Shown here piece by piece: positions 49,591 through 51,457 of a stretch of DNA of 51,457 nt; the first letter of the stretch is position 1, and each line of letters opens with the position of its first letter. Made by a program: the position numbers and the translations under genes. The DNA is taken from positions 1 through 51,457 of the forward strand of contig PXCF01000093.1 of NCBI GenBank assembly GCA_003566715.1, in the 5' to 3' direction. Below the pieces are notes generated by a model that was given only the letters and a program-made list of their open reading frames with translations, was not told the origin of the DNA and did no database searches. Origin of the DNA: Cryomorphaceae bacterium (GTDB taxonomy: Bacteria > Bacteroidota > Bacteroidia > Flavobacteriales > Schleiferiaceae).

Positions 49591-51144
49591 TTACCAGCGA
49601 CCATATCTGCCCATAGAACTGGGATTGATGATGAGGTTGTCTGTTGCCCGACTTCCCCAATTCCCGCGGCGATTGAGTTGTTGTTGGCGATCCATCATGT
49701 ATTCGTCTTGAAACGTTTCGCCCACCTGTACGCCCGGCTCCAATTCACGGGGCCAGTTTTCATTGTAGCGCTCACCATCGGCATTGCTGTGCACCAAGCG
49801 GTAACGATTGGTGTTTACTTCGCGGTCAACAAAGACAAAAATACGGTCGGTTTGGTCACGCGTAGAAGGTGATTTCAATTGATTGTACTGCCAAATTTCA
49901 AAGGGGAATGTTCCGGTTTCAAAACGTCTGTCTTCAACCAGCGTCGGTTTACCGTATTGTAGATATACCCTCCCGCGATCGGACTGATATCCGGGCAACA
50001 CACGCATGCCGTATTTTTCATTCACGTAGCGCACCTCCCGGTAGTAACCCAGCCATTCATCGTAGGTATTGGAAGGAAATTTATTGGCCCAAAAAGAGTA
50101 GAAGAAGCGCTTTAACTTGCTTTTATCCCCTTCATTGGTCAAGGTTTCTATAGAGCGTTGCTCTTGGAAATTGGCTATGGGTGTTAAGAAGTCAACGAAG
50201 TGTTCGATGGAGTCCATATTGATCTTGTCCATAAACGTACCCGCCAAGTCGTCGAGATTGGTTTCCTGGAAAAACTTAGGCGCTTCATCGTTGGGGTTTT
50301 CTCTCAGGAAATACACGTGACGGGCGTCCATGACCTCATTCTTTTGAGAAATGGCTTCTAGCACCAGAAAATAAGGACCGGATGGCAGGTCTTTTATGTT
50401 AAAGCTACTCAGCATGGGGATGACACTGTTCCCATCCTTAATGCGTTTAAATCCGGCCAGTTTATCAACTGTTTCCTGGGTTTGTGCATTCTCCACATAA
50501 TACTTGATCATAAACGGTCTGGCGGTGTCCTCTGCGGTTGTTCGGTCATATAGTTCCGCATAAAAGTTAATCCGTTCGGCCTTGTCGCCGTAGTAGAAGT
50601 GTTTGCGTGGCAGAAGGGGGATAAGGTTAAAACCACTGCCATCGGATTTTGGACTGTAGCTGTTAAGAATGTTGACATCGGAAAAGCCAACGCGTTCGGG
50701 ACCACGGAGATTGACCTCAAAGTTGAAATCGTATGATTCAGATTCGTTGTGGATATCATGCACGGAAATGTGCACTTCGTAAGAACCGGGGTCGAGGCCC
50801 AAGCGCTGCGTATGGGTGAAGTACATGTTCAGCGCTTCATCGCTTGCATTTTCCGGAACCGTTACTTGCACGCTTTCCATACCCTGTAACTCATCCTCTT
50901 GATAAACGGAAACACGAATGCCAATTCCGCCGGTCTTCACCCCTTCATCATTGCTTGATATGGTCAAAGAAGATCCCTTAAAAGCGTAGTAAGTTTCGAG
51001 TACAGACGCCTTTTCTGAAGAAAAAAAGCGCCCATAAGACACCCTTAAATCCATTTGCTGCGCAAACAGAGAGCTGGTAGTCAGTGCGATAAGCCAAGTC
51101 ATTAAATGTTTCATCCCCATCCTATTTGAACTACTAAGATACAA
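49591..51144 (-). CDS. GWxTD domain-containing protein
   Basis: Signal peptide; 'FWANKFPSNTYDEWLGYYREVRYVNEKYG...GYQSDRGRVYLQYGKP'. Confidence 0.82.
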   Translation of the reverse strand: MYLSSSNRMGMKHLMTWLIALTTSSLFAQQMDLRVSYGRFFSSEKASVLETYYAFKGSSLTISSNDEGVKTGGIGIRVSVYQEDELQGMESVQVTVPENASDEALNMYFTHTQRLGLDPGSYEVHISVHDIHNESESYDFNFEVNLRGPERVGFSDVNILNSYSPKSDGSGFNLIPLLPRKHFYYGDKAERINFYAELYDRTTAEDTARPFMIKYYVENAQTQETVDKLAGFKRIKDGNSVIPMLSSFNIKDLPSGPYFLVLEAISQKNEVMDARHVYFLRENPNDEAPKFFQETNLDDLAGTFMDKINMDSIEHFVDFLTPIANFQEQRSIETLTNEGDKSKLKRFFYSFWANKFPSNTYDEWLGYYREVRYVNEKYGMRVLPGYQSDRGRVYLQYGKPTLVEDRRFETGTFPFEIWQYNQLKSPSTRDQTDRIFVFVDREVNTNRYRLVHSNADGERYNENWPRELEPGVQVGETFQDEYMMDRQQQLNRRGNWGSRATDNLIINPSSMGRYGRW

Positions 51145-51158
51145 ATTAAATAAATGTC

Positions 51159-51188
51159 TTGCAAACTATGAATTTCATTGTATTTTTG
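51159..51188 (+). promoter_or_regulatory. promoter of tRNA-Ser
   Basis: TTG (51159-51161), 19 nt, TATTTTTG (51181-51188), about 10 nt before the mature 5' end. Confidence 0.65.
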
Positions 51189-51198
51189 CCCCCGCTTA

Positions 51199-51283
51199 GG
51201 AGGGATGGCAGAGTGGTCGAATGCGGCGGTCTTGAAAACCGTTGAGGGTCACACCTCCGGGGGTTCGAATCCCTCTCCCTCCG
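51199..51283 (+). tRNA. tRNA-Ser(UGA), no encoded CCA
   Basis: Acceptor GGAGGGA/TCCCTCC; anticodon loop CTTGAAA (TGA); long variable arm; T-loop GGTTCGAATCC. Confidence 0.95.
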
Positions 51284-51287
51284 CAAT

Positions 51288-51324
51288 AAAACCCCCAAAG
51301 GTCGCAGACCTTTGGGGGTTTTTT
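51288..51324 (+). terminator. hairpin terminator directly after tRNA-Ser
   Basis: AAAACCCCCAAAGGTC-gca-GACCTTTGGGGGTTTT, 16 bp perfect, then T-run. Confidence 0.85.
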
Positions 51325-51375
51325 CATTCCCCCAAAACGCCAAGCTTGCTTGAGCGTTTTGGGGGAATGAAAAAA
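51319..51375. repeat. second long hairpin, overlapping the first
   Basis: TTTTTTCATTCCCCCAAAACGC / GCGTTTTGGGGGAATGAAAAAA, 22 bp perfect; loop caagcttgcttga has its own CAAGC/GCTTG. Confidence 0.85.
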
Positions 51376-51457
51376 CCCCGGACGAAGCGCAGCGAAGACC
51401 GAGGGGTTTTATTGCAGGTCCTCCCTTTAGGGATCACGCAAGTAATCCCTTTAAGAC

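Follow-up and report, generated by a model that had tools for sequence, protein, structure and literature searches.

The window analysed here, a stretch of 51,457 nucleotides, is the whole of contig C109 and ends inside a tandem array that begins at the 3' end of a tRNA-Ser(UGA) gene. The parts of this block are as follows.

51199-51284, plus strand: tRNA-Ser(UGA), host gene of the array (ARAGORN); with the Rfam tRNA model, 51199-51283, plus strand, 59.3 bits
51283-51295, plus strand: 5' strand of P1, GCAATAAAACCCC, a 100% inverted repeat of 51403-51415, paired in the minimum free energy (MFE) fold
51288-51322, plus strand: P2, an intrinsic-terminator-like hairpin of the tRNA with perfect 16-bp arms (51288-51303 / 51307-51322)
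51315-51379, plus strand: P3, a long hairpin with perfect 26-bp arms (51315-51340 / 51354-51379) and 13 nt between them
51340-51354, plus strand: tip motif of P3, CCAAGCTTGCTTGAG, with a bulged A on the 3' side
51352-51457, plus strand: first copy of a 108-bp tandem unit (3' half of P3, P4, P1' and the T-arm-like hairpin), cut by the contig end
51380-51402, plus strand: P4 region, a weak inner hairpin (MFE; sequence read directly)
51403-51415, plus strand: 3' strand of P1, GGGGTTTTATTGC, the inverted repeat
51430-51449, plus strand: T-arm-like hairpin, GGGATCAC-GCAA-GTAATCCC, with one C.A mismatch

The 5' strand of P1 begins on the terminal base or bases of the tRNA, the outer repeat overlapping the gene by 1-2 bases. 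P2 is followed by TTTTTT at 51319-51324, a T-run that is itself contained in the 5' arm of P3, and from its sequence P2 probably also serves as the terminator of tRNA-Ser(UGA). Read on the minus strand, the P4 region with its flanking AAAACCCC (51372-51379) and GGGGTTTT (51403-51410) resembles a second terminator; a GC-rich hairpin with a T-run is thus present on both strands, at 51288-51324 on the plus strand and about 51410-51366 on the minus strand. The hairpin at 51430-51449 may be read as a degenerate copy of the T-arm of tRNA-Ser(UGA) itself, since its equivalents in other arrays resemble the T-arm of their own tRNA.

The first-pass annotation of this DNA had been right about the 16-bp hairpin at 51288-51322, the outer 13-bp repeat (51283-51295 / 51403-51415) and the AAAACCCC/GGGGTTTT stem sequences. 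Its 22-bp hairpin is real but was understated, being a sub-stem of the 26-bp arms of P3, and the GGGAT...ATCCC pair that it had placed at 51434-51453 lies at 51430-51449. The folding it had proposed as a check gave a structure beyond chance: 51283-51415 folds as a four-way junction in which P1 closes the hairpins P2, P3 and P4 (MFE), with z = -11.1 as RNA and -10.5 as DNA and none of 200 shuffles folding equally well. In a survey of 433 kb of this genome, P3 and a hairpin behind tRNA-Arg(ACG) were the only two with arms of at least 20 bp; CAAGCTTGCTTGA occurs once in the genome, at 51341-51353 of the window. At gathering score, Rfam matched nothing besides the tRNA. A permissive scan of 51100-51457 gave below-cut-off matches to microRNA precursors and leaders, which we read as chance.

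Tandem units and the neighbouring tRNA genes

A genome search with the block found the same unit on one other contig, C2 (13002-13248), which ends in 2.3 tandem copies of 108 bp. These match the block's right half at 97-99%, whereas the other matches in the genome are short or at chance level. The pattern thus continues past the window, as had been suspected. Each unit runs from the P3 tip (GAGCG...) to the T-arm-like hairpin and AATCCCTTTA; the restart of the units at the tip hints at a break or switch point there. From the common unit we infer that C109 and C2 are neighbours, and as the copy in the window differs slightly from those on C2, the array probably has at least three units. On C2 the gene beside the array, which encodes 302 aa and matches no Pfam family, is oriented towards it and hence convergent.

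This arrangement is what could be expected of a selected bidirectional terminator and nothing more, serving the tRNA on one side and the convergent gene on the other, with the tandem units as passive duplications. P2 with its T-run on the plus strand, the inverted half on the minus strand and the direction of the C2 gene all agree with it, and to this extent the stacked bidirectional terminator of the first-pass annotation stands. We nevertheless consider terminator function alone unlikely, because it leaves unexplained the tandem array, the T-arm copies and three further properties of the family described below: restriction to tRNA 3' ends, a conserved P3 tip, and coding units with a common first half. 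Most other tRNAs of this genome, moreover, are served by simple single hairpins.

Of the 32 tRNA matches of the genome, 30 were taken, and the 3' flanks of the tRNA genes among them were read. This comparison, another check proposed at first pass, revealed the same P1-P4 layout at tRNA-Arg(ACG) and tRNA-Met, together with a truncated P1-P4 element at tRNA-Gln, at a contig end. Behind tRNA-Arg(TCT) there is a 60-bp tandem repeat that includes the 3' end of that gene, tRNA-Val and tRNA-Ser(GCT) are followed by partial tRNA copies with T-loop insertions, and tRNA-Asn is followed by tRNA-tail copies and a gene for a GIY-YIG protein. Behind most of the remaining tRNAs lies an ordinary terminator. 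Contig breaks appear to fall within the arrays at Ser(UGA), Arg(ACG) and Arg(TCT).

Several details of these flanks deserve recording. The tRNA-Arg(TCT) repeat (C97:19000-19115 and C62:1-62), which appears to span a contig break, includes GGATCACGACCGAAGGGAGTAATCC. In the tRNA-Asn array (C19:1-760), the stand-alone GIY-YIG gene lies on the minus strand at C19:256-480, and the contig starts within a second copy of it. A perfect 16-bp palindrome, CCCGATAGCTATCGGG, occurs at 9 places in the genome, among them C19:157-172, C19:575-590 and C153:29435 (reversed control, 0), and in other Bacteroidota similar hairpins lie within copies that are pseudo-tRNAs (L165, L217). In a genome of the same genus (G003:C189:1-297), tRNA-Ser(UGA) carries no element; behind it lie a simple terminator and a 33-bp tandem repeat.

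A structured repeat family at tRNA 3' ends

To describe the block as a family, a covariance model, R1, was built on six elements (the Ser and Met elements of this genome and of G001, and the Ser elements of G040 and G024). It was limited to these closer sequences because a first MAFFT alignment of 15 divergent elements was structurally too poor for a model. R1 was searched in Bacteroidota only, with E-values that are rough owing to a short calibration; control pieces of this genome lacking arrays gave no match at E < 0.02. The model matched in 83 of 149 related genomes and in 23 of 396 genomes sampled across the phylum.

The location of the matches is strikingly uniform. Among 77 inspected matches outside the training set, 63 abut an intact tRNA or lie in an array behind one, 13 lie behind a tRNA 3'-end remnant and 1 behind neither. 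For the relatives, 41 of 50 inspected matches have an intact tRNA upstream on the same strand, representing 13 isoacceptors, with 36 of them within -5 to +5 bases of the tRNA and 5 further down the array (176-557 bases); the other 9 have recognisable tRNA 3' ends upstream, judged by eye, and no intact tRNA. In the phylum sample 22 of 27 matches abut a tRNA, 4 follow a 3' remnant (by eye), and the exception is a weak match in G337. The first-pass annotation had allowed that the block might be simply a common terminator pair seen after many unrelated genes; the structure is common behind tRNA genes only. The window element itself starts at a tRNA 3' end, has P1 closing three hairpins and carries the P3 tip motif, as the family does.

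The block is therefore a member of a widespread and apparently undescribed family of DNA elements at tRNA 3' ends in Bacteroidota. Searches of the open-access literature on tRNA-tail repeats, on GIY-YIG genes at bacterial tRNAs, on rtT and on Bacteroidetes palindromic repeats turned up no account of the family, which is weak evidence of novelty. Elements at the same tRNA within one genus are 73% similar, against 64% for different tRNAs within one genome, indicating that inheritance in place predominates; recent jumping from tRNA to tRNA is not evident. Separately, we note in the closed genome G044 a tRNA-Pro array (C1:1362994-1364160) of 164 bp in 6.7 copies, with 8- and 24-bp micro-repeats in each unit.

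Two of the rival explanations can be judged on location. An assembly artefact at a contig end might be suspected, given that both the window and C2 end in the array. The same arrays, however, lie inside closed single-contig genomes such as G044 and G031, and the elements covary between species (see below); leaving aside the copy number at the window locus, an artefact is refuted for the family and hardly credible overall. The second, an integration scar in the first-pass wording, would be the attachment site of an integrative element whose tyrosine recombinase acts at tRNA 3' ends. It has in its favour that tRNA genes are classic attachment sites and that tRNA 3' parts are indeed duplicated in the arrays. 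The arrays read show no sign of an integrase or island, though, and tandem units of 60-180 bp whose sole cargo is a GIY-YIG gene make such a scar highly improbable.

One outer stem closing exactly three hairpins was found in 48 of 54 elements, against 31 of 540 shuffles (MFE), a contrast that is partly built in, as the elements had been found by structure or by the model. Covariation provides a more independent test. In tRNA-Met elements from four genomes of one genus, 22 of 60 pairs are changed on both sides and still paired, a number reached by none of 500 shuffles, and sliding the partner strand abolishes the signal. In the same set 28 cells are changed on both sides and 3 on one side. The tRNA-Leu set agrees, more weakly. 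Above differing stems, the P3 tip is CCAAGCTTGCTTGAG-like with a bulged base in 47 of the 54 elements, and past P1' a hairpin resembling the T-arm of the element's own tRNA follows (by eye). The four-armed shape is thus kept across the family while the sequence changes.

The kind of pairing is equally informative. G-U pairs make up 1.5-3% of P1-P3 and 5% of P4, compared with 14% in shuffled folds. This scarcity, along with the rarity of one-sided changes, points to a constraint at the level of DNA or of both strands, or to copying from arm to arm, rather than to ordinary RNA evolution. The near absence of G-U would also suit a bidirectional terminator, which has to fold on both strands.

Arm copying is the core of another proposal, in which the elements are passive products of replication, formed by tandem duplication at tRNA tails and template-switch correction of arms, with no nuclease and no function. 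The nearly exclusive two-sided changes at tRNA-Met are as expected of it, and the P3 tip at which the units restart would be a likely switch point. Such a process would hardly keep the tip motif and the four-way layout over many genera and several families despite divergent stems. It also does not explain why P2 and P4, which are unlike each other, both fold, nor the link with a GIY-YIG gene, and we regard it as decidedly unlikely.

Strong covariation could alternatively reflect a structured RNA co-transcribed with the tRNA. A precedent exists in the tail repeats of the E. coli tyrT gene (RtT), which are tandem, lie behind a tRNA and restart with the tRNA 3' end, a layout shared by the arrays described here. 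The two nevertheless differ in sequence and structure, and the present family occurs at many tRNAs and is nuclease-linked. The RtT model (Rfam RF00391) gave no match at the window locus, and its gathering score of 45 bits was not reached in this genome. A sub-threshold match (23.6 bits, E 0.03) lies at another locus of the genome, the tRNA-Ser(GCT) tail repeat (C14:91-185). Since transcription should end at P2, ahead of P3, P4 and P1', we judge the MFE cloverleaf unlikely to exist as an RNA made with the tRNA; the very low G-U content and the lack of any Rfam match but the tRNA at gathering score likewise render a co-transcribed RNA very doubtful.

Association with small GIY-YIG nucleases

Coding and hairpin units share arrays. 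Behind one tRNA-Met of the closed genome G044 lie two GIY-YIG units and then hairpin units, and the first 86 bp of the two kinds align with 78 identities, 6 mismatches and 2 gaps (91%). This common part comprises the tRNA tail, the terminator and the 5' arm and tip of P3; past it the units part ways, continuing with the gene or with the 3' arm of P3. Both kinds also occur in the tRNA-Met contigs of G039 and in a tRNA-Ser array of G123, these three being the only mixed arrays found. The GIY-YIG domain is encoded in these arrays and in the tRNA-Asn array on C19, which holds the sole stand-alone GIY-YIG gene found in the genome of the window; it is not encoded in the assembled part of the window array. 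G001 and G002 carry elements and have no GIY-YIG match besides one UvrC-like.

A wider association emerged independently when 84,980 genomes were scanned with a GIY-YIG protein associated with tRNA-Val; the scan yielded 80 loci, nearly all titled Bacteroidota. A tRNA lies within 400 bp upstream in 63 of the 80, and 54 of these are tRNA-Val(UAC). At many loci the tRNA 3' part is present again downstream of the gene, frequently in the form of a pseudo-tRNA whose anticodon arm or T-loop is altered. The tip motif was found upstream of 1 of these 80 genes only. A closer set of three proteins served for searching, a 10-protein alignment being too diverse as a query. The linked proteins match PF01541 and, by profile, the structures of UPF0213 and SLX1. 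We left out YhbQ-like GIY-YIG proteins (KIKGWSRAKKEALI), as no tRNA lay near any of those read. In the pseudo-tRNAs behind tRNA-Val-linked genes (L120, L128, L163-L238) the anticodon arm is often replaced by CATCCCGA-nnnn-TCGGGAG.

SLX1, a structure-specific endonuclease, takes part in the maintenance of rDNA copy number, and stand-alone prokaryotic Slx1-like proteins have been described as the minimal GIY-YIG form (PMC1564403). The linked proteins are relatives of SLX1 and UPF0213 by sequence profile and, unlike SLX1, are expected to lack an SLX4 partner and a RING domain. For the process itself, the nearest demonstrated counterpart of the mechanism we favour would be the amplification driven by SegB, a GIY-YIG enzyme of phage T6. 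It cleaves DNA in which tRNA genes lie, and tandem amplification of tRNA-Tyr together with segB depends on its activity (PMC13096335). SegB, a free-standing homing endonuclease of T-even phages, likewise lies beside a tRNA gene, and tRNA and nuclease are amplified in tandem by recombination. Here, in contrast, the host is bacterial, the units carry just a tRNA tail or pseudo-tRNA, many arrays are non-coding palindromes, and the linked protein, a predicted nuclease, is small and UPF0213/SLX1-like.

These data lead to the reading we favour, at about even confidence: a family of repeats at tRNA tails that is tied to a small GIY-YIG nuclease and probably owes its amplification to it, with P2 doubling as the tRNA terminator. 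A full unit starts at the tRNA 3' end, retains the terminator P2 and continues as a near-perfect DNA palindrome able to form the four-way junction P1-P4, ending in a degenerate T-arm copy of that tRNA; in the coding units of some arrays, a small SLX1/UPF0213-type GIY-YIG gene follows the common first part. Counting against this reading are the small number of mixed arrays, the near absence of the tip motif upstream of the tRNA-Val-type genes, the single stand-alone GIY-YIG gene found in this genome, the elements of G001 and G002, and the lower similarity between different tRNAs of one genome. In the most likely mechanism, the nuclease would cut either the extruded palindrome or the 3' part of the tRNA, and recombination repair between repeated tRNA tails would insert and amplify units, as for phage SegB with tRNA-Tyr. 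Because the units carry the tRNA tail and terminator, the host tRNA would stay intact and working. Hairpin-only arrays such as that of the window would be non-autonomous or relics, whose lasting local effect would be to end transcription from both sides. The palindromic mobile remnant of the first-pass annotation is accordingly the best supported of its three ideas, in the form of tRNA-tail repeats that share arrays with GIY-YIG units and whose mobility we infer.

A further and more tentative reading is that of a selfish system spanning the phylum: a minimal SLX1-like GIY-YIG protein would recognise the tip motif or the four-way junction and spread gene and hairpin copies from tRNA to tRNA. 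REP/REPIN sequences, too, are short bulged palindromes, believed to owe their spread to a separate enzyme of nuclease type (the RAYT transposase), and the selfish system could, with similar reserve, be seen as their GIY-YIG counterpart. Palindrome, bulge and separate enzyme are alike; the present family differs in lying at tRNA 3' ends only and in its linked enzyme, and the Y1 transposase domain (PF01797) had no match in this genome while the E. coli control was positive.

If the favoured reading is right, the tRNA genes of a major bacterial phylum bear widespread, overlooked structured repeats tied to small GIY-YIG nucleases. The repeats would offer a concrete candidate substrate for these enzymes and a bacterial parallel to SegB-driven amplification of tRNA loci, and would account for the breaks behind tRNA genes in draft Bacteroidota assemblies. 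The family is also a natural case in which to ask whether covariation stems from selection on RNA or from copying between arms.
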